Source: Epichloe hybrida
Lineage: Eukaryota; Ascomycota; Sordariomycetes; Hypocreales; Clavicipitaceae
Length of the DNA: 64,000 nucleotides
Direction: 5' to 3'
NCBI GenBank assembly: GCA_019022495.1
Contig: JAFEKR010000053.1
Coordinates: forward strand, 186,001-250,000
This document shows, piece after piece, positions 725 to 57,867 of the stretch (positions within the stretch are counted from its first letter, which is position 1; every line of letters begins with the position of its first letter). The notes under the pieces are model-generated. The model did no database searches and was not told the origin of the DNA. It saw only the letters and a program-made list of their open reading frames with translations. The position numbers were made by a program, and so were the translations under genes.

Positions 725-840
725 TGTTAAGTGAGGAAATGGCTTAGCTAATGAAGGGGGTAATAATTATAGGACCCATATATGTAGCTTAGATAGTAAT
801 TAACTATTATCATTACCTTAAACTTATAAGTACTATTATA
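725..840 (+). repeat. 5' LTR of Gypsy-1 (116 bp)
   Basis: Aligns over its full length with 57,752-57,867. The first half (GTGAGGAAATGGC and following) keeps CpA and TpG. The second half is more mutated than the same region of the right LTR: TAATTAACTATTATC here against TAATCAACCATCATC on the right. Confidence 0.85.
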
Positions 841-2639
841 TAGTAATAAGACTAGGACCTATATATATTATTATTATCTTAGAATAAACTTAAAATTATC
901 CTATATAATTAATTATCTCTAAGAATATAAAGGAGTTAAGACTAGCGCTAAATAAATAAGAGATAATTAAATAAAGATAATATAAAGAGTAATGCTTTAT
1001 ATAAAATTACTAGAGTATAGCTAAGGTTAAAAATAGAATAATAGATATATCCTAGGAGCTATAATTACCTAATAATAAAGGATAAGAGATAAGGTCTAAT
1101 TCTAACTATAGCTAGGAATAGCTTTAATTATTAAAGCTATAATTACTAAGGACTATAGGACTTAAGTAATAGGTTTAAGAACTATAAGGCTTAGATATAC
1201 TAGCTAGGAGACTAATAAAGAGAATAACTTTATATCTAATAAGAGATAAAATCTTAAATAATACTTAAACTAGAGATCCTAAACCTTAGGAGAAGTAATT
1301 AAATTAATAAATAAATAAGACTAGAATAAGATTAGATTATAGAGATTAGTAAGAGAGAATAATTAATTAGTAGCTTATAGTAATTAATTAGTGGGATACT
1401 ATTAGATATAGTTACTAATATAGGAAGCTTATTTTACACTAGATATATTAAAATAAGAGAACACTTTAAACTAATTTAAGGAACTAAAGATATTAGATTT
1501 AAAACTAAAAAACTATTCCTAGAACTTAATATTTTTAAACTTAGTAAAACGCTATTATTCCCTATAGAAAGGAATAGATACTAATTAAGAAATAGATATA
1601 CCTAGATAATAAAATTACCTTCTAACTTTTTAGGACCTATAGAATTACGCTTAAAGCTAAGAAATAGGACTTAGTAAATAGTATTTAATAGACTTAGCTA
1701 TAAGGTAGTATGCACTCTAACTCTTATATAAATAAAGTATTAGATTAACTATTTTATAACTATATTTATTACTATAAAGAATAACTAACTACTAAACTCT
1801 AATAATAAACTTAAACTATAATACTCTATAGTATTATAGTAAGAAAAGGCACTAGTATAGAAATGCGTAATATAGCTAGATAATAGGGTTAAACCTTATA
1901 AGTTTAGGTAGGCTTTAACCTACCTCTTTAATTTTAAAAACCATAGTTTACTAAGATAATTACACCACTATAATCTAAGGGGGCGCACAGACCACTGCCT
2001 CACTTTTACCTTACTTTTATCTCTATAGTATTGCTTATCTAATCTTCTAATTAGCAAGTATAGTGTGAACTATATATTACACTATACTTCTTAGTATAGA
2101 ATTTACCTTAGAATTAAAAATAAGAAGGTTTAGAGTAGTAATTATTATAAAGTTAAAACACACCTAACCTTAGGAGTTAGGATAGGTAAAAGGAATAAGG
2201 AAAATAGTAAATAGGTTAAGGATAGTTTTTCTTAAGTTAAAGGACACTTAGTTTTTTTTCTTCTTTTTAAGACTTAAGGTAACCTAATAGAAAACTTTAT
2301 TATAGTAAGTTTTAAGTTTAACCTAATTCCTTATCCTAATTAAAGTTTACTATAGCGTACTTTATCCTTTATTAAAAACTCTTTCTTTTATCTATATAAA
2401 CTCTAATAATTCCCTTTATTAACCTAAGACCCTTTCCTAGTATTACTATTTATATTACGTTTATAAATAATTTATTACTTAAGATTTATATATAGGAGAA
2501 TTTAATCCTAGACTTTAACTTTAAATCTAAAAGAGCTTTACCTTTATTTTACCTAAATCCTAACCCTAAATTACTTATTTCTTTGTCTAAAGTTAAAGAT
2601 ATTTTACCCCTTTTCCTAACTTTATTACTTTAATCTCCT
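841..2639 (+). other. Gypsy-1 leader / 5' internal region, no recognisable gene
   Basis: About 1.8 kb of RIP-mutated AT-rich DNA between the left LTR and the gag relic. I found no protein domain in it. A short GC-rich, CpA-containing patch (GGGCGCACAG at 1,981, then ACCACTGCCTCACTTT at 1,991-2,006) stands out and shares 16 bases with the 41-bp tandem repeat of hAT-1. This leader is long for a Gypsy element, so a small unrecognised insertion may be present. Confidence 0.4.
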
Positions 2640-4720
2640 AAGACTACTAACACTAGTAACTTAGGATAGTTAATTACTATAAATAATATCTTACTTCCTA
2701 TAATATTATATAATATTAGTAAAATAACTTTCTCTAGATATCCTAGAGATAAACTAGCCTAAGACTATATAGACTACTATCTTACTATAGTAGCTATAGC
2801 TTAAATCCCTAATTATACTAATACTCTAGTATATTATAACTTTACTTAAGGTTTAAGGGGAAAGGCTATAACTTAGTATAAAGATTTAGACTATAAAGAC
2901 TATAAGTAAGAAGTTTTAAAGAATAAGTTTATAAAGAAGTTTAAGAAGCCTAATTTACTTCTAGAGGTAGTAATATAGTAAGAAGCTTATTACTTTACTA
3001 AAGAAAAGGGAGAAAGCCTAAATGCCTATATTTAAAGAGTAAAATACCTAGTATTTAAGGTAAGAGTAAAAGTAAGATAAGTTCTATTTATAAACTTTAT
3101 AATATATATAGTAAATAGAGATTTAGATTTATAACTATAGAAAAGAGTAGTAAATTATTTATATATAACTAATAAATAGATATAGGGAATAGCTTTATAA
3201 GACCTTATAATATTAGATCTTAAAGTTATTTTATATAACTATTAATTCTTTATTTCTAAAAAAATCTCCTAGCTTAGCAAAGAGTCTAGAATACTAGATT
3301 ATTCTAACCTAGTTTATATATAAATAAAAGAATAAGCTAAGAGAGATAAATTAGCTAATAAAGCTTAAGCCTAGAGAGATAAAAAGATAATAAATTTAAT
3401 TTATTAACTTAAAGTTTTCTAAGCCTAAGCTATAGGAGAACAATCTAGACTATATAGATAAATAGAATAAGGAAAATATAATATTAATAATCCCCCCTAG
3501 TTACCTAGAAAGCTAGTAATTAAATAGATATAAGGAGATAAATAATAAGATCCTAATTTCTTTTAGTGTTTCTTATATAGAGAATAGGGATATATAGGGT
3601 ATAACTATTCTAGTAAGGATAAATATTTATTAGAAGATTTTAAAAGATATTAAGAATAGTAAACCTAAGATAGTTATTAGATAAAGAGAGAATGTTAATA
3701 GGAGTTAGATAACTCTAACTAAATTAACTATATTAGAGGTCTAGAAAGAGAACTAATTTCACTGCCTAGGTTTATGCTAATATAGAGATTTATAGCACTT
3801 AATACTTCTATACTAAACTATTAACCCCTAAGTTATATCTAAGAGAGAAATAAGATAAATTACACTTACACTATAACCTTAGGTAATCTAAAGGGAAAAA
3901 GTTTAAAACCTATATAAATAAGAGAGCTAGCTAGAAAGATTATAAAACTATCTAATAAGCCTAGATTAGTTTTAGATAAGTAAGCATAATAGTAAGTTAA
4001 GGAGATTCTAGATATAGAAGAAGTTAAGGAAACCTAAAACTTATTTTCCTTTAATATAATGCGTTTACTATAGGAAATAACTCTAGAAGAATTTAAAAGA
4101 TTACTACTAGCTATAAGACCTTATTTAGACAAAATCATAGGACTTTCTTAGAAAATAATAACTTTAGATTTGCCTTATAAGATAATAATAAAAGATATAA
4201 TACTAAAGGAAACTCTTACTCTAAAATAAAGACTAAAGTTAGAAAAGATTAAAGTAACTAAAGAGTATTAAGTTCTAGTATTTAACTTAGGAAAATATCT
4301 TAGGAATATAATAGTTTTTATTAGCATTCTCTAGTTACTTTAACAAGCCCTAATTATTTAATAATAACTAAGCTATTTAATATAGTGTTAAAAAAAGACT
4401 AAGAGTAAGGGAGTAAAATCTATAATTATAAATCTTATAAAACTATTTAAAGAAGTAGTCTAGCTAATATATAAGGCTAACTTAACCCTAGGATTAGTAA
4501 ACACTATAATTGCTTAGAATAACGTTATAAAACTAAATAAAGATATAGTAATTACTCTAGGATATATTATAATATATATTAAGGGTTACTAATATAATTT
4601 AGTTTTAATTAATAGAGAATCTAGTGTTAAACTAGTAAGCGAAAACTTTCTAGTAAAATTTAGGTTTACAGTAGTATAACTTAGGGAAAAGCAATATATT
4701 TAAATAGTAAATAACGTAAA
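2640..4720 (+). pseudogene. Gypsy-1 gag and protease relic
   Basis: Conceptual translation of about 2,640-3,280 reads as a Ty3/Gypsy gag capsid: a region like LRGKAITxYKDLDYKD followed by KNKFIKKFKKPNLLLEV, then KEKGESLNAYIxRVKYLV, interrupted by TAG/TAA at likely Gln and Trp codons. Near 4,599-4,640 a segment LVLINRESSVKLVS matches the retropepsin motif of the ALIDSGSxVNLIS type, with the catalytic Asp now Asn (GAT to AAT). The two domains are separated by about 1.3 kb of low-information sequence. No functional product is possible. Boundaries are approximate because stops are frequent in all frames. Confidence 0.6.
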
Positions 4721-5606: not shown

Positions 5607-5876
5607 TGTTAGGAGCGCAGAGGTCAAAGATAGGATGTTCATTAAAGCGGGTCTTCAGAGAACCTTTAGGCCGTGCAAATAACAAAGAGGCTAGCTAGCT
5701 ATAAGATAGCCACGTGCTTATAAAGTAAGGTACTTATTAAAGACTACGTATATTATTAGTACTAGGTTAGAGATTAAAACCTTTATATACCTGCCCCTAG
5801 CTAGTATTTATCTAGTAGTAACTATAATAGTCTTAGCTATTACTTTATTCTTAACCTTTTAGTATAAGCTATAATA
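5607..5876 (+). repeat. 5' LTR of Gypsy-2 (270 bp)
   Basis: Collinear with 26,376-26,645 and of equal length. Its outer end is almost unmutated (GAGCGCAGAGGTCAAAG), while its inner end has lost nearly every CpA and TpG (AGTATAAGCTATAATA, where the other LTR has GGTGCAAGCCGTGACA). Confidence 0.92.
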
Positions 5877-6359
5877 AATTAATCTCTCTTAACCTTTTTA
5901 AGGATATAAACTATTAGCTAGATTATTATATAGCTAATACTCTAAAGATCTATAAGAAACACACTAGTACCTTATAATAATAAAGCTATAGATAATTAGG
6001 AAAATAAGGAACCTCTATAATCTAGAACTATAGATAATAGGGTATAATAAACGCTACTTAATCCTAATTTAGGTAAAGGTATAAATAATATAACTAAAGA
6101 AAAAAGGGCGTTATAGTAATACTATAAGGTTATATAATCTAAGCTATATTACCTTTAGAGGAGATAAAAGGTCTTATAGATAAAGGCATAAATTAAAGAG
6201 CTTAAGGCAAATCTAGGATTAGCTAGACCTTAAACTAGACCTATAATTACCCCTTAATCTAGACTTAAAATTACCCCTTAAATATTAGCTATAATTTTAC
6301 CTATAGTCTATAGTAATATAGTAGTAATTATATAGTAAGGTAGTCTTATTAAAATATAG

Positions 6360-8155: not shown

Positions 8156-8909
8156 TGTTAAAAATAAGACCTATTTTTAGCCCTTTCTAGTTAAAGGACC
8201 TTTCTATTACTAGCTTGCATTGCAAGCCTGACAGCTGCGACCGACCGTGTGGATAACTAATCCAAATCAATTGTTAATTGTGAATTATTTAATTGCGTTG
8301 TGGCTACAAGCGCAGCTACAACCGCAGCGCCACTAGTAATTAGGTAAGCTAGGGTGACGTAAGCAGGTTACCCTATAGCTATCTTTGACAGCGATTTTCT
8401 CTTTAACTAGAGGTTGTACAAAAGTCTTGCATATAGCAAATTAAAGCTAGAAGACAGGGCTTTTATTTTATACAGGAATATTTTTTTAGACTAAAATTTA
8501 GTGCATATGGGTTGCTAGTTTGTATGGTAGTGAGTCGATTTTTTGGATTTTATATACAAATGAATTTTGCGGAAAATAAAAAGTAGCCTATAAGACCTCT
8601 TTAGCGGTCTGGATCCACCAATACAGTTAGTGGGTATATAAGAGAAAGAAGATCTTTTTAATCTAGCTAGAAAGCTAGGCCTCTTAATCTAATAGCCGCA
8701 TTGCCTATATAACGTCACTAAAATCAATTCTATTAGTATATAAGATATTATAAAAGTTATCTAGATTAAATTCTATTAGTTAATAACTGCTAAAACCTTC
8801 CGTTGCGTTACGTTAAATATTTTAACGTGGTGGTTTTACTAGTCTCTAACCGTAGAGCTGCACCTATATAGCTATTACTAGCCGGTAACTAGCTCCCTAC
8901 ATTTCAATA
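8156..8909 (+). repeat. 5' LTR of Copia-1 (about 754 bp)
   Basis: Aligns with 14,434-15,251 but lacks about 64 bp near its position 75, where the other LTR and the solo LTR have a block containing AGCTATTAATAGCT inverted units. The LTR end is taken as CAATA because the ATAGG duplication follows directly in the right copy. Confidence 0.88.
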
Positions 8910-8966
8910 GATTATAAGCCTAGTCTATTACTATAAAATTCTTTCTAGTGCACTTTGCGTATGGTT

Positions 8967-9243
8967 ACAGAAGACTTCCCTTCTATAAAACAGGAAGGAC
9001 CCGTAAGATAGAAGCTATTCCCTTCTATAAAAAAAGGAATCATTATGGTTATAAAAGACTTCCCTTCTATAAAACAGGAAGCGCATAAGCAATATAGAAG
9101 CTTTCCCTTCTATAAAAAGGAAGTTTAGTGAGAATAGAAGCTTTTCCCTTCTATAAAAAAGGAAATTCAGCGTAAATAAAAGCTTTTCCCTTCTATAAAA
9201 AGGATTTTTAGTACAAATAGAAGACTTCCCTTCTATAAAATTA
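8967..9243 (+). repeat. Seven short repeats in the Copia-1 leader, each a potential hairpin
   Basis: Between the 5' LTR and the gag start the motif TTCCCTTCTATAAAA, usually followed by a GGAA, occurs seven times at about 40-46-bp spacing (near 8,975, 9,018, 9,059, 9,105, 9,144, 9,188 and 9,225). TTCC and GGAA within a unit can pair around a TATAAAA loop. The array lies in what would be the 5' untranslated leader of the genomic RNA. A packaging, dimerisation or translational role is only a guess. Confidence 0.8.
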
Positions 9244-9247
9244 AAAG

Positions 9248-14227: not shown

Positions 14228-14425
14228 AAACCAATAACTAAATCCCTTTAATAGGGAACTAAAAACAACGCTAAAAAGGGAGCTATATTTAATAATAGCT
14301 AGGAATTTAAAAGGGGGTCTTTTATCTTTTCCTGTTTTTCCCTTTTATCTGTTTTTATCTAAAAGTTCTTATTTACCCTATATTACTTAGTACGCTTTTA
14401 ATTAGCTTATACGTAATTCTTTTGT

Positions 14426-14433
14426 AAAGAGGG
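14426..14433 (+). other. Polypurine tract of Copia-1
   Basis: AAAGAGGG lies immediately upstream of the TG that starts the right LTR, the expected place for the plus-strand primer. It confirms the plus orientation. Confidence 0.8.
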
Positions 14434-15251
14434 TGTTAAAAATAAGACCTATTTTTAGCCCTTTCTAGTTAAAGGACCTTTCTATTACTAGCTTACATTG
14501 CAAGCCTAATAGCTACACTGCAGCTGTTAACGGTCACGAAGGTGGCTATTAATAGCTATGTCATAGCTATTAATAGCTATAACTAACCGTGTGGATAACT
14601 AATGCAAATTAATTGTGAATTGTGAATTATTTAATTGCGTTATGGCTATAAGCGTAGCTATAACCACAGCGCCACTAGTAATTAGGTAAGCTAGGGTGAC
14701 GTAAGCAGGTTAACCTATAGCTATCTTTAATAGCGATTTTCTCTTTAACTAGAGGTTGTACAAAAGTCTTGCATATAGCAAATTAAAGCTAGAAGACAAG
14801 GCTTTTATTTTATATAGGAATATTTTTTTAGACTAAAATTTGGTGTATACGGGTTGCTAGTTCGTATGGTAGTGAGTCGATTTTTTGGATTTTATATACA
14901 AATAAATTTTACGGAAAATAAAAAGTGGCCTATAAGACCTCTTTAGCGGTCCGGATTCACCGATATAGTTAGTGGGTATATGAGAGGAAGAAGATCTTTT
15001 TAATCTAGCTAGAAAGCTAGGCCTCTTAATCTAACAGCCGCATTGCCCGTACAACGTCACTAAAATCAATTCTATTAGTATATAAGATATCGTAAAAGTC
15101 ATCTAGATTGACTTCTATTAGTTAATAACTGCCGAAACCTTCCGTTGCGTTGCGTTAAATATTTTAACGTGGTGGGTCTACTAGTCCCTGACCGTAGAGC
15201 CGCACCTGTACAGCTGTTGCCAGCCGGCAACTAGCTCCCTATATTTCAATA
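14434..15251 (+). repeat. 3' LTR of Copia-1 (818 bp)
   Basis: Full-length form of the LTR, including the block missing from the left copy. Followed directly by ATAGG, the target duplication, after which the Gypsy-2 RT frame resumes. Confidence 0.92.
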
Positions 15252-24775: not shown

Positions 24776-24779
24776 TATT

Positions 24780-26375: not shown

Positions 26376-26645
26376 TATTAGGAGTGTAGAGGTTAAAGAT
26401 AGGATATTTATTAAAGTAAGTCTTTAGAGAACCTTTAGGCTATATAAATAATAAAGAGGCTAGCTAGCTATAAGATAGCTATATGCTTATAGAGCAAGGT
26501 ACTTATTAAAGACTACGTATATTATTAGTGCTAGGTTAGAGATTAAAACCTTCACGCACCTGCCCCTAGCTAGCATCTATCTAGCAGCGACTATGATAGT
26601 CTTAGCTATCACTTCGTTCTTAACCTTTCGGTGCAAGCCGTGACA
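26376..26645 (+). repeat. 3' LTR of Gypsy-2 (270 bp)
   Basis: Partner of 5,607-5,876. Here the inner start is heavily mutated (TATTAGGAGTGTAGAGG) and the outer end is preserved (TTTCGGTGCAAGCCGTGACA). Followed directly by GAAAA. Confidence 0.92.
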
Positions 26646-26650
26646 GAAAA

Positions 26651-28433
26651 TTATCTAGAGTTAAATTAAACATTAGGAGGTAGCCTAGAAAAGGGAATAA
26701 AATGAAAACTTCTCTTATAATATTATAAATATTATAAACACTAAATAACTAGAATAAAGTAAGAGAAACTATAAGGGTAATAGGTAATTATTAAACTTAA
26801 TAGGAAAGGATAAGGAACCTTTAGACCTCCTAGAGATACTAGCTAGATTAGCCTAAATAGATTAGATAGATAAGTATAAGCTAAATACTAATAAATATCT
26901 GAGAGACTTAATTTATATAGGAAATCAGAAAATTAAGGGGTTTACCTATGAAAGTGAAAAACCTTATATAAATAACTAGAATAAAGTTTCTATTTATAAA
27001 ACATAGGATAGTTTATAGTATTCTAAGGACTTAGTTATAAAGCTAGGAGATTATTATAAGCTAGACGCGGTTAGACACGCGTATACCCTAATTTATATAT
27101 AAAATCAGAATATTAAGGGGTCCCCCTTAGAAAACAAAAATCCCTATATAAATAAGAAGTTACGTAACTTAGAAGAAGAAACTAAGGCTAGCGGATAATA
27201 TCTAGTGAACTTAGCTAATTTAACGTATCTAAAGGCTAATATAATAAGAGATATAGGGGATAGAATAGGTGCATAAGATATAGAGAGATAAGCTAAAGAG
27301 CTAATTTATATAGGAAAATAGGAAATTAAGGGCTACCCCTTATAATTCTGAAATCTCTATATAAATTAACTATTATTATTCTCCTCCCCTAAAACCATTA
27401 TTTTATAGTTTAAGAATTCATATATTAAGCTAGGAGACTATATAGGTAATAATAATTAGAGGATAATGATTATGTGATTATACTATATATTTAAAGAGTG
27501 CTTTATTTCTAAACTTAAGGATATTTACACTACTAATCTTCTAGAATATTATATCCCTTTAATCCTAGGAGTAAGGCCTAGTAAACGTAAATAGTATAGG
27601 TATTTAGTAGCCTATTAAGACTTTTTAAAATAGATTTTCCTAGTAATAGAGAGAGTAGGAATTATTTAATAAGGAAACTTAAAATAGGTAGTGCTAATAA
27701 TATTTACTTTAAAGCTAGGATAGAAGGTTTTTAGAGTAATTTATAACTTTAAGGACATAAATAGTAAGACTATTAAATTAGGTTATTTATATTATAATAT
27801 AGAAGCAAACTTAAATTTAGTTTACTATAGTTATTCTAAGTTTATATTATAGACTAACGCTTTAAATAGATTCTAGGCTATTAGTGTTTACTTACTAGAT
27901 AGGTATAAAATAGCTTTCTCTAGACTAAATAGAATATACTTCTATAATAACATAGCTTAAGGATTAATAGGGTTACTAGTAACTTACACTAGGTTTAAAG
28001 ACCTTACCTTTAGACACTTATTTTTCTAGGATAGTACTAAAAGTAAATCTATTCTAGGGTATATAGAAGATATATATACTTTATTTACCTCTAAAGTTAA
28101 GTATATTAGATATTCTCTAGAAGATAGGAAAATACGTCTTACATAGAAATATTATAATAGATTTATTAACTTAGCTAAGTAATTTAAGAAATAACCACTA
28201 TAAACCTAAAATAAAGTACTTATGCTTATTTACTTAACTTTATTTATATATAAATTTATTCTAGGAAGATTAGACTTAGTAATTACTATTAAAAGGGCTT
28301 TCTTTTATAAGATCCCTAAGAAAATATAATTAGGAAAGCTATTAATTTAAAAGGAAGAAGTCTTAAGAGAGAAACTAAAATAAACTCCTAAGGCTTAATA
28401 AGCTTTATTAAAAATATATAATAGTATCTAGTT
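26651..28433 (+). pseudogene. Gypsy-1 pol: repeat-bearing linker and reverse transcriptase (relic)
   Basis: After the Gypsy-2 insertion the Gypsy-1 frame resumes on the plus strand. About 26,908-27,370 holds three in-frame copies of a ~24-residue motif (LIYIGNQKIKGFTYE in the first). The RT follows in the same frame: YRYLVAYxDFLK near 27,600; KVFRVIYNFKDINSKTIKLG near 27,730; YYSYSKFILxTNALNRF near 27,830, where the motif-A Asp appears as Asn; AQGLIGLLVTYTRFKDLTF near 27,955. A stretch like FILGRLDLVITIKRAF near 28,255 corresponds to the thumb/connection part. The frame stops at the Gypsy-3 insertion and continues after 40,388. Confidence 0.75.
26907..27368 (+). repeat. Three in-frame degenerate repeats in Gypsy-1 pol
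   Basis: Copies at 26,907-26,974, 27,088-27,155 and 27,301-27,368. Each begins TTAATTTATATA or CTAATTTATATA, passes through an AAxTTAAGGG core and ends TATATAAAT. Starts are 180 and 213 bp apart, both multiples of three, so all three lie in the RT frame. A second shared phrase (ATAAGCTAGGAGAtTATTAT-like) lies between or after the copies near 27,040 and 27,427. Confidence 0.75.
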
Positions 28434-28903
28434 TGTCAAGCGGAAAACAACACCCCAAAAGACACAATGCTAGCTCACGGTTGTAGGTAGTGGTAATGTC
28501 TGCTTACGTCAGAAAGGTTAATTAACTTAATAGCAGCGATTATAACAATAACTAAATTAGTCTTTACGGATAGAGATAATTTAGATTAAATAGTCTATTA
28601 GATTAAAAGTGACTTTTTGGTTAAGTTAGGGAAATAATCTTATTAATTTATCTTATTAAGGTAAACACAATGGCGGCTATAGTAGCGCTAGGCATTTAAG
28701 TTAAAAATCTAAAGTTAGGCGTGTATAAAGAACCTTAAAAGAATCTAGCTATAGGTAATCTCTTTATAGATTAAATAGTCCCTTTACCTAAATAACTAAT
28801 ATTATTATCCCTTATTATGTTATTTATCCTTGTAATCCCCTATATCCCTTATGCTTATTATTATAAATACGCGCGTTGATGGGCGCGCGTATTACGGCAT
28901 ATA
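28434..28903 (-). repeat. 3' LTR of Gypsy-3 (470 bp)
   Basis: Outer end preserved (TGTCAAGCGGAAAACAACAC), inner end mutated (ATTACGGCATATA where the partner has ATCACGGCACACA). A CGCGCGTTGATGGGCGCGCG near-palindrome (28,870-28,889) survives in both copies and would form a GC-rich hairpin. Confidence 0.88.
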
Positions 28904-39850: not shown

Positions 39851-39918
39851 GTCTATAGCAAATTAACTAGAAAGCGAAAAGGTCCTAGGGGTTTAAAACC
39901 ACGTTTCTTTACTAGTTT

Positions 39919-40387
39919 TATTAAGCAAAAAACAATACCCTAAAAGACATAATACTAGCCTATAGTTATAGGTAGTGGTAATGTTTACTTATATTAGAAG
40001 GGTTAATTAACTTAATAGCAGTGATTATAATAATAGCTAAATTAGTCTTTATAAATAAAGATAATTAGATTAAATAGTCTATTAGATTAGAAGTGACTTT
40101 TTAGTTAAGTTAGGGAAATAATCTTATTAATTTATCTTATTAAGGTAAACACAATAGTAGCCATAGTAGCGCTAGGTATTTAAGTTAAAAATCTAAAGTT
40201 AGGCATGCATAAAGAACCTTAAAAGAATCTAGCTATAGGTAATCTCTTTATAGATTAAATAGTCCCTTTGCCTAGATAACTAATATCATTATCCCTTGTT
40301 GTGTTATTTATCCCTGCGATCCCCTGTATCCCTTGTGCTTGTCATCGCGAATACGCGCGTTTATGGGCGCGCGTATCACGGCACACA
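39919..40387 (-). repeat. 5' LTR of Gypsy-3 (469 bp)
   Basis: Partner of 28,434-28,903. Here the outer end (TTGTGCTTGTCATCGCGAAT through CACGGCACACA) is unmutated and the inner end (TATTAAGCAAAAAACAATAC) is mutated, the reverse of the other copy. Confidence 0.88.
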
Positions 40388-41898: not shown

Positions 41899-42185
41899 TG
41901 TGGCTTCCTTTGGACCTTCGGACGATAGATAGTCCAACCGTGGCCAAAGAGTGGAGCCACCGAAGGGATGCACGCGATGCGATTAGATGCATCGCGAGCT
42001 ACCCTGCTCCGTTAGCAGTAGCACCACACTATAGCCTTACTTTTCCCCCTTTTTACTTACCTTCTCTTCTAGCTAAATTCCTCTCCTTCTCTCTCTTCTC
42101 TTCTCTTAGTTATTAGCTATTATTATTAACTTTATTAAATTTAACCTTATTACACTAGTGCAAATATTCCTTAGTAAAACTAACA
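41899..42185 (+). repeat. 5' LTR of Copia-2A (287 bp)
   Basis: Outer 120 bp keep CpA, TpG and CpG (CTTCGGACGATAGATAGTCC). The inner part is mutated. An open frame over 41,898-42,116 is only LTR sequence and is not a gene. Confidence 0.88.
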
Positions 42186-42699
42186 CTAATTAGTAGTTAA
42201 CTATAACCATAGATAAGTTAAGTATTATAAGAAGAGATATTTCTGCAAATACTATAGCCACTACCCCTTATTATACTAAATTAATAGTTATTACAGTAAA
42301 GAGACATAACTATAGAGTGTGCTAAAGGAAGATAGACTAGAATCCTAGTAATAGGCTTATTAGACTTCTAAGAGATTAATCTATTAACTCTTAGGCCTTT
42401 AGGATATTTAGTTAATTATTAATCTTATTATCTATTATAAGAAAACTAACTAAATAACTAAATCTATTGCTATAAGGCATTTTATTTAAACCTAACGTTA
42501 AAAACAATCCTTAGCTAAGCTAGCTAACCTATATAACCTCCTTCTACACTCTCTTTATAACCCCTCTTCTCTCTTTATAGCTTTTTATGCCTTAGTGTTC
42601 TAAACATTAAGTTATTTCTACTTTTATACTATCTTTATAGCTTGCTTTTCTCTCTTTTTACTATTTTCCCCTCTTTTATACTTTTTCCCGTTATTTTTT

Positions 42700-42830
42700 A
42701 TTATTTCCCTTTATTTATCCTATTAATCCTATTAATCCTACTAATCCTATTTATCCTATTCCGTTTATCCTATTTATTCTGTCCTGTTTATCTTATTTAT
42801 CCTATTTATCCTACTTATTTCACAAGCAGA
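42700..42830. repeat. 9-bp TATTAATCC/TATTTATCC array in the Copia-2A leader
   Basis: About ten to twelve degenerate 9-bp units (TATTAATCC, TACTAATCC, TATTTATCC and variants) lie between LTR and gag. The same array appears in reverse complement in Copia-2B at about 55,420-55,535. The open frame 42,642-42,881 is produced by this low-complexity stretch. Confidence 0.75.
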
Positions 42831-42949
42831 GCTCTAGGCTCTATTATATTAATTATAGCACTTTTACCCTATTTTTATTAGCCTTATTAATTTAAGACTA
42901 ACATTACTAGAGGGATAGAACTAGAGGGCAAAAGAATAATAAGGGGCAC

Positions 42950-48240: not shown

Positions 48241-48451
48241 GACCTATAAGGTTAGGCAGAGGGGAGGATTAATATAATAGGTATATAGGTATAGATTATA
48301 ATAACTAGGTTAATTAGAATAACTAAAGCCACAATAGCTAATAAGAACCGTGAATTCCTATTAAGGGATTTACTTATATATACTTTCCTTTAATCTAATT
48401 TTTATTACGTTTTTAGGCTCCTTTAGCTATAAAGAAAAGAGAGAGTGCTAG

Positions 48452-48743
48452 TGTGGCTTCCTTTAGACCTTTAGATAATAAATAGTCTAACTATAGCTAA
48501 AGAGTAAAGCCACTAAAGGGATACACGTAATGTGATTAAATATATCGTAAGCTACCCTACTCCGTTAGCAGTGGCACTACACTATAGCCTTACTTTCCCC
48601 CCTTTTTGCTTACCTTCTCTTTTAGCTAGATTCCTCTCCTTCTCCCTTTTCTCTTCTCTCTTAGTTATTAGCTATTATTATTATTAACTTTATTAAATTT
48701 AACCTTGTTACACTAGTGCGAACGTTCCTTAGTGGAACTAACA
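48452..48743 (+). repeat. 3' LTR of Copia-2A (292 bp)
   Basis: Inner start mutated (CTTTAGACCTTTAGATAATA), outer end preserved (TAGTGCGAACGTTCCTTAGT). Confidence 0.88.
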
Positions 48744-48748
48744 ATTAC

Positions 48749-49497
48749 TTTAAGCTTTATAATTCTAAAGCTTTAAGAAGTTATATATAGTAACTTTATA
48801 TATCTTATTATAATAATATATAAAGAAAGAATATAATAAACTAATATTTATAATTTATTAATAGATAACTAATAGTATTATTTTAATTACCCTATATAGC
48901 TTAAATAAGCTATAAAAAATAAGTTTAACTTATTTTTAAAAATAATACTAGGACTTAGTTTTATATAATATACTATACTTATTATAAAAGCTTTAATAAC
49001 TTTTATAACCTTAATTACTATTATCTTACTTTTATTATTATTTTAAAAAAAATATAAAAGAGAAAACATTTTTATAATATTAATATTTTTAAAAACCTTA
49101 AAATACTAAGTTATTAAAAACTATAGCTTTTACTATAGTAATTTACTTATAATTACTAGTATTTATATTTAAGTTATTTATTTTCTATTTATTTATTATT
49201 AAACTTTAACACTAATAATATTATAAGTAATCTTAGTAATCTTAGTAATCTTAGTAATCTTAGTAATCTTAGTAATCTTAGTAATACTAGTAATATTAGT
49301 AATATTAGTATTATAAGCTATTATAAGCTATAATAAGATATAATGAGCTATTATAAGCTATAATAAGATATAATAAGCTACTTATATTAAATTTACTAGT
49401 AGTTTTTTTATAGTTTTTTTAAAATAAGTAATAATAATAATTTATAGAAATATAAAATAATTTATAGAAATAGTAAATAATATAATAAGAAGGTTTT
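48749..49497. other. Central segment of hAT-2 between the two Copia-2 elements
   Basis: About 750 bp, very AT-rich, without a gene. It contains about seven TAATCTTAG units (49,226-49,290), TAATATTAG units and TTATAAGCTATAATAAGA units (49,310-49,380). In reverse complement it resembles hAT-1 at 24,810-25,200. The last bases, up to GTTTT (49,493-49,497), complete the left-arm inverted repeat and form the Copia-2B target copy. Confidence 0.65.
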
Positions 49498-49789
49498 TAT
49501 TAGTTCCACTAAGGAACGTTCGCACTAGTGTAACGAGGTTAAATTCAATAAAGTTAATAATAATAATAGCTAATAACTAAGAGAGAAGAGAAAAGGGAGA
49601 AGAAGAGGAATCTAGCTAGAAGAGAAGGTAAGCAAAAAGGGGGAAAAGTAAGGCTATAGTGTAGTGCCACTACTAACAGAGTGGGGTAGCTTATAATATA
49701 TCTAATTGCATTACGTGTATCCCTTTAGTAGCTTTACTCTTTAGCTATAGTTAGACTATCTATTATCTAAAGGTCTAAAGGAAGCTACA
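49498..49789 (-). repeat. 3' LTR of Copia-2B (292 bp)
   Basis: Outer end preserved (CTAAGGAACGTTCGCACTAG), inner end mutated (AAGGAAGCTACA). The purine tract of the element adjoins it on the minus strand. Confidence 0.88.
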
Positions 49790-49999
49790 CTAGCACTCTC
49801 TCTTTTCTTTATGGCTAAAGGAGCCTAAAAACATAATAAAAATCGGATTAAAGGAAAGTATACATAAGTAAATCCCTTAATAGGAATTCACGGTTCTTAT
49901 TAGCTATTATAGCTTTAGTTATTCTAATTAACCTAGTTATTATAATCTATACTTATATGCCTATTATATTAATCCTCCCCTTTGCCTAACCTTATAGGT

Positions 50000-52900
50000 C
50001 TCTTAACCTATTCTTTTATATAAATTATTAATTTATTTAAATTAATTAAGGTTAAAAGGGCTAAATTTAGCAATGCCTTTGTTATCACATTAGCTAGATT
50101 ATTACTACTATTAATCTATCTAACTTTATAGACTTCCCTCCTCTTATATAACTGCTAAAGGGCTATAATATTAATTATTAGCCACTTCTCTTTTATTATG
50201 CCTAGCTTTATAAGGCATTTATATAATAAGAAAGAGTCTATATAGAGAATTATTAGGATTTAAGGTATCTTTAATTAGTCTATGATTATTTAAAGGGTTA
50301 TAGATATTGCGTACGCAATATTAGTATCTTAAACCATGCTATATAGCTTAGATATAAGTGCGCTATAGGTTATACACTTGCTTTTTATAGAGCTATATAT
50401 AATAATATTCCCTTTTAAGATAAAGGTATTATTATCCTTTATTACTTTATTACTAATTATAATAATATATCTAATCTATAAGCTTAAATCTTTATTATTA
50501 GTAAGGGACCTATTTATAAATATAAAGAGCTTCGCTTCTTTAAGAGTTAAGGGGATATACTATAATCCCTACTACTAATGCTTAATTTGTTACTTAAGGC
50601 ATTTATTAAGTTATAAGATATTATTAGCAAAGGGTTCTTAGTATTATATAGTAATTAATAGGTTATATAATGCCTCTAGTTAATAGACTATTATAATATA
50701 ACTTCCTTAGGCTCTTTGCTTTACGTAATCTTGCCTTACTATTAGTAATTAAGGGTTAATTTCCTTAATCTTTTAACTTTAGCTCTTTTAGGTTAGGGTT
50801 AGGGAGTTATTAGCATTTTAGGTTAAGATATAGCTATTAAAGATAAGGGGATTTATAGTTATAAGGCATTATTTTTCTTTAGCTATAAACTTTGCCTTTT
50901 AGAGCTCTTTTTTTTCTTTCTTAAAGAAGTTATTATTACTAAGGCCTAGCGTGTTATTAATTTATATCCCTATAATACTAAAGAGGTTTTTTTTATTTAA
51001 GGCTATAATTAGTAAGCAAGGATTATATTTTAAGGTTATTATATTAAGATTATTCTTATAGTAGCAAAAATATATTACTTACTAGTAAGTTCTAGCCTTT
51101 ATAATCCTATAAAGGGGCTTAATAACCTCTATTATTATGCCTTTTAGAAAGAGGTATATAATTTGCTTTAGTAACTTTATAATAATTAGCCTATTTAGGG
51201 TTATTTAGGATTAAACATAAGCTTATGTAATATCTTATAGCTAAAGGTAAATTCCCTTTTGCTTTAATAATAGAGTAAGGGCTATAATAATCCATTAGCT
51301 TAATTACTATATTATTAGTAATTAGGTTAAGATAGCCTCTTTTCCTCTATTATTATGCCCTTATATAATAAGGCGTGATTTCTTATATAGTGTTTTAGTG
51401 CCTTTACCTTTAATCTCTTAGACTATATAAGAATTAAAGATCTAGTAGCCTCTATACTTTACTAGATTAAATATTATAAATCTAAATATATTATAAGCTT
51501 ATAATATATTAATCTTAGCTTAATTAGATTATTTAAAGGGGCTCCCTAGGGTTATAATCTTTCTCTCTTAGTAAAGTTAAAGGGTAAGGTTTTAGTTAGC
51601 CTTTTCTTTTACTATAAGGAATACTATATTTAGTATTTCTCTAGCTATAATCTCCTTAATTAATACTTTCTCTTAGTCTTTATTAATAAATATAAGGGGC
51701 TTTATAAGTCTAATAAGCTCCTTAGGATTATAAACCTAAGCCCTAGTTACCTTTACTTTTACTTCCTTAAGGCTACTAGCTTTATAGCTTCCTATAAAAG
51801 TAGCTTTAGCTACCTTAAGGCTTACTATAAGTTCTTTAACTTTATAGCTTCCTATAGGATTACCTTTAGCCTTAATAGCCTTTATAGGCTTTTCTATGCC
51901 CTTATTAATAAAGAATTAAACTATAAGGTTTTTTCTTAGCCTCCCTTACTTTCTCTTAACTAGTGTCTTTTTCTTTTCTTTCTTTATCTTATTACCCTTT
52001 ATAAGTAGCTTATCTCTCCTAGCCCCCTTAGCTTTTTTTATAATAGGACTATAGCATTAAAGAGAGCTATAGTATAGAAAAGGGCTATATTATAGGTAAG
52101 GACCTCTAGGCTTAGGTTATACTCCCTAATATCCTAAAGGCTTTACTTATTAGCCCCTATATATTATAAGTCCTTATAGTATAGCTTTATTACTATAGAG
52201 TAAAACTTAGCTAGGCTATAGGGTATTTTAACTATATAAGTCTCCCTATTAGTAGCTAATAGCTTATAAAAGCTATGCTATTTACCTTTTTCTCTTTATA
52301 TATATATATTAGTCTATAGTAATAGCTAATATATTAGTAATATATTAGGGCTATTCTAAGCGCTAAGGGCCTTATAGACCTATCTCTTAGCTAGGTAATA
52401 GTAAACTTTATTAGTTACTTTCTAAATTACTTTAGCTTATTAAATAATAGAGATACTTAGTAATAACTTATCTATTATCTATAGGTAAGCTCTAAAGACT
52501 AGTAAGGTTAGCATAAGGCTATTAGGGCTTACTAAGTTATTAATAGCTTTAATAGCTATCTAGAGTTATTACTTAGGAGTAATTTCCTTACTAATTAAGT
52601 CTATAATAATATTATAAGCCTAGTAAAGAGGTCTATAATATCTCTTAACCTTTCTAATGCTATTATAGGCTTTAATAAGTATTTTATTAATATTAATTAA
52701 TATTAAGCGAGTATAATACCTAAATTTAGCTAAGGTAAAGTTATTACTAGTATTATAAATAATCTAGTCTAAAGGGCCTAGATATATATTAATCTAGCAC
52801 TCTTTAATTATATCCTAGATATTATAAGCTTTTTGCTTCTTAGGGTTAAGGAATTAGGCTACTTAAAATAAGGTTACTAAATTAATAATATAAAGGACTA

Positions 52901-55290
52901 GCTAGCTATTAATTTACATAATATTAATAATAATCTTATAGTTAAAGTTATAGTTATCTTTAAGGGAGAATTTAAACTAGCTAAGGGCTTTTCTATTTAT
53001 CTAATAATAGTAATAAACTTTAGTAAGCTTTTTAATTATATAGCGTTTAATATTATAACTAGCTTATTAAAGGATTTTGATAAGCTATTAAATTAATAGA
53101 TAACTAAACCTTTAGTAAAGTTAATAAATCTCTCCTTCTAATAAGTAAAAAGCAATGGTTTCTCTTACCTCTAGAAGTCACTAAGGGTAGCCTTATTTAT
53201 ATATAATAGGTATAGTCTTATTGTTTTAAATTAATATATTAGTAAGGTTATTAATCTTAACCTTTATTTTATCTATATTAGTAAGGGAAAAGAGAAAGGG
53301 TATAGTAGTATTAAGGATATAAAAGTTAATTTAGCTAAGCTTTATAAGCATATAGATAACGCTATGTGTTATTACTAATCTAGCACTAAAGTAAATAACT
53401 TCTAGGTTATAGGGTTTAATTATTAATAATAGTATTAATCTTAGTAAGGCTTTAGCTTATACTAGACTAGTAGTTAATTAGCCTAAGGCTCCTATATCTA
53501 GTATAATTCCTCTAAAGATCTCTTTAAAATAGCGTCCTTTAAAGGTATAATAAATTAAATTATCTTTATTAAAAGCCTCTTTAAGGTATAGCTCTTACTT
53601 AAGTAAGGCATGTTAAAAAGCTTAATTCTTAAGCGTTATAAGGATATTAATATTATCTATTATTTATAATCCTATATAAAAGAATTATATAATGCTAAGT
53701 TATGCCTTTAATAATAGCTTTTTCTTAACATTATTATTACTATTATCTTAGTCTTAAGTAAAGGCCTTAAGCTATATTTCCTAGTCTTTTATTTTCTCTT
53801 TATTATTACTATTATTTCCTTTAAATAAAATAAGGAATACCTAAAACTTCTTCTCTATAGGAGGTAAATAATAGTTCTTACTAGCTTACTACCTCTCTTT
53901 CTCTTTCTAATATTTAGTATTAGTATAGTTTAATAACTAGTAGTTACTTTTACTATAGATAAAGCATTACTTAGGTTATCTAAAGTTACTATAATAACTT
54001 TCTCTTCCTTAGTCTCTTTAATTCTATTAGCTATATTAGTAGTCTATAAACATTACCTCTAATAAGTCTTTATCTTAATACTAGTAATATTAGTTACTTC
54101 TTATATTACTCTTTATAATTATAATTAATTTATAGAGATTACTAGTAAGGTTCTTAAAGCCTAGTATATATATATACTTTACTACCTAATATTTAGGAAT
54201 ACTAAAGACTATATTTAAGGTTTACTTATAGAGCTTTATATTTACTATATTAGAGAGGTATAGCTCTTTATAAACTCTCTTTAAGGTAATTAATAGAATC
54301 TTAAGGCACTTAAGCTTACTTTTATTAGGGTTTTATATAATAATATTTTTAAGGGTTATATTACTTTACTTATAGTAATAAAACTATTAATTACTTTCTA
54401 TTTTAAATTATTAATAGATATTTATAATTATCTCTTTATAAGAGAGGTTTTTACTAGTAAGGTAATTAAGAAAGTGCTATTTAGTATCTCCTATTAATAT
54501 AATAGGGAATGCTTTACTAAAATATAACTTAAGGAGGTTAATCTAGTTATACTTACTCTTAAAGAGCGTAAGCTTTAGTAAGAGAAAGTTATATAGCTTT
54601 TTACTATAGTAATTACTATCCTTATATATCTTTATAAGCTTAGATATTTTCTTTATAATTTATTTATCTAAAGGGAAGGAATAAGAAAGGAGGGGTAAGC
54701 TATTAAGGGTTAAACTCCTAATATAATTAAGATTATTATAAGGGTTTTTATAGAGAATATAAAGATTATTTCTTTTAAAGGTAAGGAATATTAGGGAAGG
54801 TCTTTAGGGTAGTAGCCTATAGAGGTTATATTTAAGGTAATTTAGAGGATCTTAACCTTTCTTCTAGCTAATAAGGTATTAAGGTTTAATAAAGCACTTC
54901 TTTAAGTAATGCTAGGATTAGATATCCTAGGCCTTATTTAATAAGAATACTATAATCTTATAAAGAGTTATATAGCTCTCTTATAATATCCTTATTTACG
55001 CTTTTAAAGGTATTCTTAGACTAGCCTTTAAAGTTCTCTTAGAATAATTCCTAGAGGTTATTATCTCTCTAGCCCTAATGCTTACTAAGGTTAATAAACC
55101 CTATAATATAATTATTAAGCTTAGGCTATATAGTAGTCTTAGGATCTAGATTATTAGATTTTTTCTAATCTCTTATAAGCTTACTAGTAAGTAGTTATAG
55201 ATATAGTAGGAGTTTATTCTCTTAAGGTCTTTTAAGGATAGTTATCTTTAAAGATACTTATAGGGGTTTAGAGAAAAGGAGTGTATTTTA
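50000..55290 (-). pseudogene. Copia-2B polyprotein relic
   Basis: Same domains as Copia-2A in reverse: RNase H about 50,010-50,930, RT about 50,930-51,400, integrase about 52,600-53,150, gag up to about 55,290. The integrase acids are again N (INIMxINS near 52,920; IIYNTSNN near 52,755). The RT box reads INNTLGL near 50,945, so both Asp are Asn, where Copia-2A still has one Asp. Mutations shared with copy A lie at CpA/TpG sites and are best explained by parallel RIP. The plus-strand open frame 50,378-50,578 is a shadow inside RNase H. Confidence 0.8.
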
Positions 55291-56043
55291 GAAAGTGCCC
55301 CTTATTATTCTTTTACCCTCTAGTTTTATCCCTCTAGTAATATTAGTCTTAAATTAATAAGGCTAATAAAAATAGGGTAAAAGTGCTATAATTAATATAA
55401 TAAAGCCTAGAGCTTTACTTATAAAATAAGTAAGATAAATAAAATAAACAAGATAAATAGGATAAACAAAATAGAATAAATAGGATTAGTAAGATTAATA
55501 GGATTAATAGGATAAATAAAGGGAAATAATAAAAAATAATAGAAAAAGTATAAAAGAGGGAAAAATAGTAAAAAGAGGGAAAAGTAAGCTATAAAGATAG
55601 CGTAAAAGTAAAAATAACTTAATATTTAGAACACTAAGGCATAAAAAGCTATAAAGAGAGAAAAGGGGTTATAAAGAGAGTATAAAAGGAGGTTATATAG
55701 GTTAGCTAGCTTAGCTAAGGATTGTTTTTAATATTAGGTTGAAATAAAATACCTTATAGCAATAGATTTAGTTATTTAGTTAGTTTTCTTATAATAGATA
55801 ATAAGATTAATAATTAACTAAATATCCTAAAGGCCTAAGAGTTAATAGATTAATCTCTTAGAAGTCTAATAAGCCTATTACTAGGATTCTAGTTTATTTT
55901 CCTTTAGCACACTTTATAGTTATGCCTCTTTACTATAATAACTATTAATTTAGTATAATAAGAGGTAGTAGCTATAGTATCTATAGAAATATCTCTTCTT
56001 ATAATACCTAACTTATCTATAGTTATAATTAACCACTAATTAG

Positions 56044-56335
56044 TGTTAGTTTTACTAAGGAATGTTTACACTAGTGTAATAAGGTTAAATTTAATAAAGT
56101 TAATAATAATAATAGCTAATAACTAAGAGAGAAGAGAAAAGGGAGAAGGAGAGGAATCTAGCTAGAAGAGAAGGTAAGCAAAAAGGGGGAAAAGTAAGGC
56201 TATAGTGTAGTGCTATTACTAATAAAGCAGGGTAGCTTACGATGTGTCTAATTGCATTGCGTGCATCCCTTCGGTGGCTTCACTCTTTAGCTATGGTTAG
56301 ACTATCTATTGTCTAAAGGTCCGAAGGAAGCCACA
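56044..56335 (-). repeat. 5' LTR of Copia-2B (292 bp)
   Basis: Outer end preserved (TCCCTTCGGTGGCTTCACTC and AGGTCCGAAGGAAGCCACA), inner end mutated (AGTTTTACTAAGGAATGTTT). Confidence 0.88.
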
Positions 56336-56340
56336 GTTTT

Positions 56341-56753
56341 TCTTTAAGTTATATTAGGGAAATAAAGTATTAAGTTAAATAGTATTATTAAAAAAGTATA
56401 ATATTATATATAACCTTACTTAGTTATAATAAAATTATAAAAATAATATAATATTATAAATTCTATAACTAATTTAATAAAATAGGTAATAATAAAAGCT
56501 TTTATATAACTAGCTTTCTTTTAACCTTATAAATACTAATAACTAATAAAAAGTCTAATACTACATTTGTAGTGTTTATAGTTAGTATAGTTTAGGAAAA
56601 AAAATTTATAGTGTAATATATTATAGTTTTTTTTTTTTTTGTAGTTAGTATAGTGTAGTTTTTTTTTCCTTATAGTTAGTGTAGTTTATAGTATAGTTAC
56701 TACATTACACTACAAATACTACACTACACTACACGTTTTAGTGCAATACTCTA
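56341..56753. repeat. Right inverted arm of hAT-2 with GTAGTGTAG sub-terminal array
   Basis: Reverse complement of most of the left arm. Ends ...GCAATACTCTA at 56,753. The terminal A in place of G fits a TpG to TpA change. Poly-T tracts alternate with GTAGTTAGTATAGTGTAG words. Confidence 0.8.
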
Positions 56754-56761
56754 GTTATAAT

Positions 56762-57650
56762 AGACTATTTAGGTCTAATTACTTTAAAAGCTAAGAATAA
56801 AGATATATATATGTTAATTACTATAGACTATATAATAAGGTTTATATTAGGATAATCCTATATAAAGGTAATAGAAGATTTAGTTACTTAGGCTTAGGAT
56901 AAAAGTTAGAGTCTAATATTTATATAGCTAAGAAGAATTTATTATAATAATAGCTTATATTTTAAGAACCTAATATTTTAAGCTACCTCTAGGAAACATA
57001 AAACTAGTGTAATATATAGACTAGTTTCTTATCTATTATTAATAGGACTAGCTAAATAAAACATAAGACTTATTAAAGAATAACTAATAAAATAAGCTAT
57101 TAAGAGAGATAGAGTTTTACTAGACTCCTAGAATTAGGCTATTCTAAGCATTATAGTAGTAATTAATAATTAGTATATATTAAGTGTTAGGATAAGCCTA
57201 GTAATATCTATATTAGGATTTAAACTATTTGTAAAACATATAGGAGTTAAAGAACTAGAATTATTAGACTTTAAGAATCTAGGAGTATTAGATAATCTAG
57301 AACTAATTTAAGAAACTAACCTATAGAATTTAGACCTATAGGAGAAGAGAAAAGAGTTAGTTTAGATATAGAAAGTAAATAATTAGGATAATACTATAAA
57401 ACCTAGGCATAGCTTTAAGGTAGGAAATCTTATATAGGAGAAGATAAATAAAGAAAATAAGTTAAAAAAAAAGTTTTATAAGACTTAGGGGAAGCTATCT
57501 AAGGTTATCTAAAGAGTGTCTTTAGTAATATATAAAATCAAACCTATTAAGGGAGAAATAGCAAGGAAAATCCATTTAGATAACCTAAAACTCTATATCT
57601 TATGCTAGGAGAAGCTTTAACTATTAAGATTAAACACTTAGGATTTAGCT
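56762..57650 (+). pseudogene. Gypsy-1 integrase core and C-terminal part (relic)
   Basis: Resumes the integrase broken at 41,409. The start is read as DYLGLITLKAKNKDIYMLIT (from 56,763), then IDYIIRFILG, the beginning of a Gypsy integrase core. The expected DxGxxF segment near 56,930 and the EVxNR segment near 57,030-57,060 are present only as degraded sequence. A Lys/Glu-rich tail (HSFKVGNLIxEKINKENKLK near 57,415) and KLSKVIxRVSLVIYKIKPI near 57,490 fit the C-terminal DNA-binding part. In-frame stops are frequent. Confidence 0.65.
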
Positions 57651-57751
57651 AATTAAGGGATAATAGATTAGATAAATCTAGAGAAAGATAAAGTATTATA
57701 ATAGAGAAGAATATAGTGTTAGGGTTAACACTAAGGGAATCCCCCCTAGCT

Positions 57752-57867
57752 TATTAAGTGGGGAAATGGCTTAGCTAATAAAGGGGGTAATAATTATGGG
57801 ACCTATGTATGTAGCTCAGATAGTAATCAACCATCATCATTACCTCAAACTTATGAGTACTATTACA
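57752..57867 (+). repeat. 3' LTR of Gypsy-1 (116 bp)
   Basis: Partner of 725-840 and of equal length. Its outer end is essentially unmutated (CATCATCATTACCTCAAACT). Followed by CCCC (57,868-57,871), the right target copy. This is the right border of the RIP block. Confidence 0.88.

Follow-up and report, generated by a model that had tools for sequence, protein, structure and literature searches.

We found that RIP mutation becomes sparse toward the outer ends of LTR retrotransposon insertions in the genome of Epichloe hybrida, the last 100-200 bp or so staying largely unmutated, most probably reflecting a weakening of RIP toward the edge of shared homology. In the comparison of LTR pairs, RIP-site mutation was lower in the left (outer) part of the 5′ LTR and in the right (outer) part of the 3′ LTR in all 55 insertions of four LTR-element families supported by a target-site duplication (TSD), rather than being equally dense at outer and inner LTR ends. 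This mirror pattern had been described in an earlier note on the window (the whole stretch of 64,000 nucleotides that was analysed), and the check proposed there on other genomic copies showed the same asymmetry in 41 of 41 TSD-supported pairs of Gypsy-2, Gypsy-3 and Copia-2, including those of the window, and in 14 of 14 pairs of Gypsy-1. When CpA/CpG differences between LTR partners were sorted into those preserved in the 5′ and those preserved in the 3′ LTR, the ratios were 267:19 in the left third and 11:237 in the right third for Gypsy-3, 117:2 and 0:153 for Gypsy-2, and 262:20 and 1:117 for Copia-2. In the lightly mutated Gypsy-1, the asymmetry was still significant at 200-300 bp from the end (101:48, p 2e-5). 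The LTR partners of the 41 pairs differed by 1,430 CpA/CpG transitions and by only 16 differences of other types; since non-RIP differences are so rare, position and not sequence decides mutation, as the earlier note had claimed.

The four motifs cited in that note were found exactly at 5613, 26382, 26630 and 5861 of the window, each once on the plus strand, and the pattern it reported for Gypsy-2, Gypsy-3, Copia-2A and Copia-2B was seen base by base in the aligned LTRs. The 270-bp 5′ LTR of Gypsy-2 (5607..5876, + strand; TSD GAAAA) is little mutated on its outer, left side and mutated on its inner side, and the 3′ LTR (26376..26645, +) is mutated on its inner, left side and little mutated on its outer, right side. 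The LTRs of Gypsy-3 lie at 28432..28903 (5′, 472 bp, +) and 39916..40386 (3′, +) with the TSD CTAG, and those of Copia-2A at 41899..42185 (5′, +) and 48452..48743 (3′, +) with the TSD ATTAA/ATTAC, which has one mismatch. Copia-2B is inversely oriented, with its 3′ LTR at 49500..49792 (-), its 5′ LTR at 56044..56332 (-) and the TSD AAAAC. A 15-kb inverted self-match at 41576-56592 was considered as a palindromic duplication and rejected, as it consists of these two opposed Copia-2 elements with different TSDs. The mirror was also seen in the lightly mutated Gypsy-1 (about 8156-15251; TSD ATAGG), the 5′ LTR of which (8156..8909, +) measures 754 bp here and about 786-821 bp elsewhere, and the 3′ LTR (14434..15251, +) 818 bp. 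The outermost element (725-57867), which holds the AT-rich block, has LTRs of about 116 bp with a less clean pattern: the left half is mixed in the 5′ LTR (725..840, +), which has CCCC on its outer side, and the right half is preserved in the 3′ LTR (57752..57867, +), which is followed by CCCC. The 55 pairs kept have the hallmarks of LTR retrotransposons, namely direct LTRs and a TSD; a Pfam search of nine short ORF pieces gave no transposon domains, and the names Gypsy, Copia and hAT are labels taken from the earlier note.

RIP is reported to occur in Epichloe (PMC6218096), and C-to-T (G-to-A) transitions dominated the differences between copies in the 41 pairs. Where the outer partner has C, the mutated fraction of inner-LTR sites in Gypsy-3, Gypsy-2 and Copia-2, respectively, was 0.69, 0.90 and 0.56 for CpA and 0.38, 0.75 and 0.72 for CpG, as compared with 0.04-0.09 for CpT and 0.03-0.08 for CpC across these families. 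CpA was thus ahead of CpG in two of the three families, and CpG was ahead in Copia-2. Both strands were affected, C-type and G-type sites being mutated or preserved to a broadly similar degree at each end.

The change along the LTR was graded. The within-column ratio of mutation between LTR partners started in the first bin at log2 values of -2.9 to -4.3 in Gypsy-2, Copia-2 and Gypsy-3 and -1.9 in Gypsy-1, was about 0 in the middle of the LTR, and reached +2.4 (Gypsy-2) and +3.6 (Gypsy-3) in the last bin, being less regular in Copia-2 and Gypsy-1 (last bins +0.64 and -0.24). In the column-by-column fit to the four families, the mutation rate at 50 bp from the outer end was 3-23% of the interior rate, and half of the interior rate was reached at 87, 126, 156 and 229 bp, so that no single constant describes the families. 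The weakening near the ends thus agrees with the earlier note, whose range of 50-150 bp is too narrow in view of these distances and of the reach in Gypsy-1. Within 100 bp of the outer ends, the four families retain 13.5-19.1 RIP targets per 100 bp, as compared with 2.1-5.6 in the interiors of three. In Gypsy-3, the inner LTR ends also have partial protection, the unmutated fraction in the 5′ LTR being 0.53 in the last bin and 0.16 further in.

In each of the four families, a symmetric edge ramp improved the fit over a constant rate, by 124-335 lnL units. The model reported is a ramp with a floor, which was chosen after the data had been seen and was tried after a Weibull gradient, rejected for fitting worse than steps in three families. 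The comparison of the ramp with a step bears on an alternative in which mutation covers what is transcribed, beginning at the transcription start in the 5′ LTR (R-U5) and stopping at the 3′-LTR poly(A) site (U3-R). The untranscribed 5′ U3 and 3′ U5 would then escape, owing to transcription-linked mutation or RNA-guided targeting. This would give an identical mirror within an LTR pair, and in each family a step indeed improves greatly on a constant rate; in Gypsy-2, it also slightly outperforms the ramp (AIC 829 vs 838). However, the ramp outperformed the best step in Gypsy-3 (2303 vs 2369), Copia-2 (1657 vs 1691) and, narrowly, Gypsy-1 (4083 vs 4088), and the graded change itself argues against a boundary of transcription. 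Moreover, both ends show the effect, and its reach is roughly alike in LTRs that range from 270 to 820 bp, although U3 and U5 lengths need not match so; duplicated DNA is also the known substrate of RIP (PMC4858203). One argument, that the transcript model is ruled out by preservation in the middle of short LTRs, was abandoned, because the order of two steps is unidentifiable when site susceptibility is left free; under that freedom, the middle of short LTRs cannot separate ramp from step. On balance, we regard the transcript model as unlikely.

The preferred reading, that RIP weakens at the edge of homology, would operate as follows. Both LTRs of one element would have been identical at insertion, as indicated by the TSDs and by how few differences are not C/T or G/A. 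In RIP pairing, the DNA shared between copies would be the whole element, bounded by the outer ends of its 5′ and 3′ LTRs and flanked in each copy by a different target sequence. If the chance of mutating a base scales with the homologous DNA on both its sides, the outer end of an LTR, where homology is one-sided, would rarely be mutated, and the corresponding inner end of its partner far more often. Direct observations are that mutation depends on position, by how much, that it does so at both ends, and that the dependence is unrelated to flank composition. From these we infer that the gradient is set by pairing and not by some other property of element ends, with a paired length of roughly 150-200 bp, which is the minimum known from Neurospora, as the unit. 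The inner-end protection of Gypsy-3 would require the extra assumption of LTR-LTR pairing.

The flanks were informative in two respects. First, 81 of the 82 outer ends lie in flanks below 40% GC (median 0.23) and one at 40% or above, in agreement with the earlier suggestion that the effect persists inside other repeats, and end preservation showed no relation to flank GC over the 82 ends (Spearman -0.08, p 0.46). Second, the flanks retain as few RIP targets (3.4-5.3 per 100 bp) as the interiors, suggesting that the flanks have been mutated themselves. A chromatin boundary or flank composition that shields element ends independently of homology would place protection at the junction with foreign DNA, where it is indeed found, but the unvarying preservation beside AT-rich, apparently mutated flanks makes such shielding quite improbable. 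Restoration of the outer ends from unmutated copies by gene conversion or recombination is very improbable. Two solo LTRs with TSDs, products of LTR recombination, are present in its favor; against it, conversion has no reason to favor, in every insertion, the outer end in both of two identical LTRs. Across copies, moreover, mutated sites occur beside unmutated ones at the preserved ends, in proportions that are graded, and conversion within an LTR pair would remove the difference between its members. Both solo LTRs are preserved at their ends and mutated in the middle, and were set aside as a decisive test because recombination after RIP yields an identical pattern.

Internal breaks offered a further view of homology edges. 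Of 15 internal copies with an interruption, 12 had less mutation near the break than expected (one-sided rank test, combined p 0.04) and three had no reduction, L038 being clearly opposite; L052 and L058, among the strongest cases, were also less mutated further from the break. Another candidate, L015, was rejected as an internal-edge case, as its inner LTR end (19/25) was matched by L020 and L025. The homology edge, which the earlier note proposed as the cause, is thus the best-fitting reading, albeit an indirect one, weakly supported by the internal breaks and tempered by the slightly better step in Gypsy-2 and by the differing half-rate distances of the families.

The distances found here fit minimum-homology data from Neurospora crassa, where defined-repeat assays show that 155 bp of homology can trigger RIP and 220 bp gives substantial RIP (Gladyshev and Kleckner 2016, PMC4858203), values close to our half-rate distances for the same C-to-T mutation in shared homology. 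Those assays used engineered close repeats instead of natural elements, and an edge gradient is not stated as a result in the portions of the paper available, which do include one construct with an apparent paucity of mutations in about the first 130 bp. In that system, heavy mutation can also affect single-copy linkers lying between close repeats, so that RIP sometimes reaches past the edge, which counts against the homology-edge reading (PMC4858203). Nested RIPed elements in AT-rich blocks, as seen here, are described for Epichloe festucae, in which short repeats largely escape RIP; the available parts of that study yielded no analysis of position within elements, unlike ours (Winter et al. 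2018, PMC6218096). For the Podospora element crapaud, LTRs of full copies are reported as RIPed and solo or fragment LTRs mostly not, which was credited to their small size, whereas our two solo LTRs are mutated in the middle; the comparison there, as far as the accessible text goes, concerned whole-LTR GC rather than position within the LTR or 5′ versus 3′ LTR (PMC10787394). In Zymoseptoria tritici, RIP is likewise uneven along LTR elements, but new meiotic mutations peak at the ends (35% of them fall in 5% of the length), which the authors credit to LTR duplication (PMC10294615). This enrichment counts against the homology-edge reading, as does a RIPCAL result in which, for one family of Stagonospora, the ends of the alignment were slightly richer in RIP (PMC2621366). 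Depletion of targets in interiors, leaving them concentrated at ends, may explain the Zymoseptoria result and could be an alternative cause of it. An earlier demonstration of the edge effect by LTR pairs was not found in the open-access literature searched, and nothing on edges of repeats was found in the available text of PMC12543289, PMC7296669 (terms absent) and PMC11969663.

Recombination-independent recognition of homologous double-stranded DNA is an open question, and RIP is among its few readouts. Because each insertion carries an internal control in its LTR pair, no new crosses are needed to measure the spatial footprint in RIPed genomes; old insertions would record the distance from a repeat edge at which RIP begins, if the homology-edge reading is true. 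There is perhaps an even chance that the outer ends are a natural footprint of this recognition, in which case the gradient would give the paired DNA needed per side (roughly 90-230 bp), any RIPed genome with LTR elements would measure the pairing ruler, and variation among families would reflect RIP load or copy divergence. Dating RIPed elements simply by LTR divergence is not valid, and the little-mutated ends of copies are unrelated to age.

The pairs were drawn from an 80-Mb assembly, in which each family query gave at least 40 scored matches, indicating that the families are repeated in the genome. For Gypsy-2, Gypsy-3 and Copia-2, 41 of 49 candidate pairs were kept, the remaining eight lacking a TSD match by eye or being duplicates; for Gypsy-1, 14 of 16 were kept, the LTR ends of two not being found. 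By eye, the TSDs of the 41 pairs were exact in 38 and differed at one base in three; a looser scripted check gave 37 exact, three with one mismatch and one with two, the last, a Gypsy-2 pair, being probably L128/L139, with its duplication outside the zone of the script. That check also gave an exact match for one left-out Gypsy-3 pair; left-out pairs were counted neither way. Identical duplicate segments occur in the assembly, and 11 of 151 rows, being identical within their class, were removed, as would be expected had blocks been duplicated after one RIP event, inflating the number of independent cases. Such shared ancestry is extremely improbable, as the insertion flanks differ (among 41 5′ flanks, a single AT-rich match of 35 bp, at an offset) and the TSDs of the 14 Gypsy-1 pairs, all exact, are all different. 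The Gypsy-3 5′-LTR query fetched 28 5′ LTRs among 30 loci and the Copia-2 3′-LTR query 27 3′ LTRs among 30, a skew showing that these sets lean toward likeness to the query. The LTRs of Gypsy-1, the 3′ LTRs and five of ten 5′ LTRs of Gypsy-2, most 5′ LTRs of Copia-2 and the 3′ LTRs of Gypsy-3 came from internal-flank matches, and LTRs of pairs taken in this way showed the same behavior. The genome search also returned 12 endonuclease-domain matches, which are candidate seeds for LINE copies.

The earlier note had proposed that RIP mutation weakens toward the outer ends of the LTR elements in the window, and the four motifs it quoted lie exactly where it had placed them (5613, 26382, 26630 and 5861). 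Alignments of the LTR pairs bore out the mirror pattern, a 5' LTR less mutated in its left part and a 3' LTR less mutated in its right part, in Gypsy-2, Gypsy-3, Copia-2A and Copia-2B, and also in Gypsy-1 (8156-15251), where the mutation load is lower. The outermost LTR pair showed it in the right half only. Outside Gypsy-1, the window has 13 stretches whose GC content over 60 bp is at least 45%, and 8 of them are no more than about 200 bp from an LTR outer end. At each of the eight ends of Gypsy-2, Gypsy-3, Copia-2A and Copia-2B, GC content drops from the first 60 bp within the element to the adjacent 60 bp beyond it.

To extend the comparison, we searched the 79.9-Mb assembly of 156 contigs (the window being C106:186001-250000) with LTR queries and with queries carrying the internal sequence adjoining the LTR, and used the best 40 or so scored matches per query. 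LTRs were extracted and then aligned. Assignment to the 5' or 3' class relied on the internal sequence next to each LTR for the first 68 loci and on the internal match that they adjoin for the remainder. For Gypsy-2, Gypsy-3 and the Copia-2 family, 49 candidate pairs were reduced to 41 by removing eight with a TSD mismatch by eye or representing a duplicate copy; the TSDs of those kept, also judged by eye, were exact in 38 and had one mismatch in three. Among the matches listed, 41 of 41 pairs favored the 5' LTR in the left third and the 3' LTR in the right. Gypsy-1 pairs were selected solely by internal sequence, and 14 of 16, the window's included, were retained after removal of two whose LTR ends were not located. 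In all 14, the 5-bp TSDs were identical within the pair and different between pairs, and the outer 200 bp favored the outer LTR at both ends, again among the matches listed. The four families together thus displayed the mirror pattern in 55 of 55 pairs among the matches listed.

In the 41 pairs, CpA/CpG transitions numbered 1,430, as compared with 16 differences other than C/T or G/A. Where the outer LTR has C, its inner partner was mutated at 56-90% of CpA, 38-75% of CpG, 4-9% of CpT and 3-8% of CpC sites, and preservation of C-type and G-type sites was broadly similar at each end. Both LTRs of one insertion are identical at the start. Since the side bearing C or T in a given column tracks which LTR is outermost, these alignments point to position, not sequence, as setting the difference between paired LTRs.

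For each column, cumulative mutation in one LTR was divided by that in the other, so that site susceptibility cancels; the first-bin log2 of this ratio was -2.9 to -4.3 in three families and -1.9 in Gypsy-1. The last bin reached +2.4 in Gypsy-2 and +3.6 in Gypsy-3; the profiles of Copia-2 and Gypsy-1 were graded and less regular, with last bins, of few sites, at +0.64 and -0.24. A gradient model, a symmetric ramp with a floor, gave half-rate distances of 229, 156, 87 and 126 bp and relative rates at 50 bp of 0.23, 0.03, 0.06 and 0.10 for Gypsy-1, Gypsy-2, Copia-2 and Gypsy-3, respectively. Resampling of pairs (30 per family, on a coarse grid) returned half-rate distances of 200-270, 131-175, 87 and 119-142 bp in the same order. 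In Gypsy-1, with both ends pooled, differences favoring the outer and the inner LTR stood at 155:14 (0-100 bp), 174:31 (100-200 bp), 101:48 (200-300 bp) and 88:57 (300-400 bp). The apparent zone is shorter in the heavily mutated families, which would be expected if repeated RIP erodes the edges. At the inner end of the Gypsy-3 5' LTR (columns 420-472), about 0.5 of sites were unmutated as against 0.16-0.20 at columns 300-389, hinting that LTR-LTR pairing makes a second, weaker edge.

Restriction of mutation to transcribed DNA would produce the same mirror pattern. The ramp performed better than the best step model in Gypsy-3, Copia-2 and, narrowly, Gypsy-1, and worse in Gypsy-2, and the order of step positions is not identifiable when site susceptibility is left free. 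However, the mutation profile is graded, the effect occurs at both ends and extends over broadly comparable distances in LTRs of 270-820 bp, and RIP is known to depend on duplicated DNA, so that we consider transcription a less likely explanation.

Weakening of RIP near a homology edge was further assessed, as a partial test, at internal breaks in 15 otherwise homologous copies with enough sites. Within 100 bp of the break, 12 of the 15 were mutated less than expected. The test is weak because many breaks may be insertions later than RIP, and it gave a mean z of 1.31 near the break versus 0.57 farther away (combined one-sided rank p 0.04). One copy (L038) was clearly opposite to the trend near its break, and two (L052 and L058) were less mutated also farther from it. 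Three Copia-2 copies (L052, L057 and L061) are broken at nearly one internal position (reference 1292-1299), suggestive of a shared deletion derivative. Another locus (L015) carries at about 2020-2440 a MITE-like element of about 415 bp with terminal inverted repeats, 49 bp inside a Gypsy-3 copy, and the DNA beside it looks little mutated. Both ends were preserved in two solo LTRs with TSDs, an appearance that post-RIP recombination would share.

The edge was also said to persist when buried in other repeats, and it did show where the outside DNA is AT-rich and, judging from flank GC and target counts, probably mutated repeat itself. Flank GC was below 40% at 81 of 82 outer ends and, over these 82, was unrelated to preservation (Spearman -0.08, p 0.46), so the edge is visible despite AT-rich DNA outside. 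Remaining RIP targets are scarce in the flanks, as in element interiors, and the 41 5' flanks showed no relatedness except one offset 35-bp AT-rich match.

In the passages on Neurospora in PMC4858203, 155 bp of homology can trigger RIP, 220 bp gives substantial RIP, mutation count over the range 220-520 bp tracks the length of homology, and single-copy DNA between close repeats is sometimes strongly mutated. A gradient with its half-rate at 90-230 bp is the trace that a Neurospora-like length requirement could leave at a repeat end. Excerpts on Podospora describe RIP as mostly sparing solo or fragment LTRs (PMC10787394), and those on Stagonospora report heavy RIP in long rDNA repeats, especially in central regions, but the opposite trend in family X0, with RIP slightly higher at alignment ends (PMC2621366). 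In Zymoseptoria, passages likewise place new RIP mutations mainly at LTR-element ends, in contrast to our gradient, with counts given per window and not per available site (PMC10294615). Because remaining targets (CpA/TpG/CpG) are concentrated in the outer 100 bp (13.5-19.1 per 100 bp, versus 2.1-5.6 in internal DNA), late mutations would fall mostly at these target-rich ends, which may reconcile the two observations. That RIP exists and depends on the length of homology is already known; a position-wise 5' versus 3' LTR comparison of RIPed elements was not found in the open-access literature searched. What is new here is a strong, quantitative RIP footprint, read from natural elements that supply an internal control.

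Queries from about 26-57 kb of the window had 100% identical second matches on another contig (C69:698-728 kb, minus strand), as did the Copia-2B 5' LTR on C142; no identical second match was among those listed for the 5.6-6.3 kb and 8.9 kb queries. The identical matches represent either redundant contigs or a recent, still unmutated duplication. Within strongly mutated DNA at 19304-19778, two 243-bp copies, offset by 232 bp, are 98% identical, and are perhaps younger than the surrounding RIP or too short for it. The GC content per kb was 16-37% across 1 to 57 kb, versus 50-56% in the final 6 kb; in this low-GC block, mutated LTR elements lie nested in one another, as in those described in passages on Epichloe festucae (PMC6218096). 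The DENN-domain protein at the right end of the window is 100% identical to its E. festucae Fl1 match over the 451 residues compared, and the next named source is Claviceps, at 96%.
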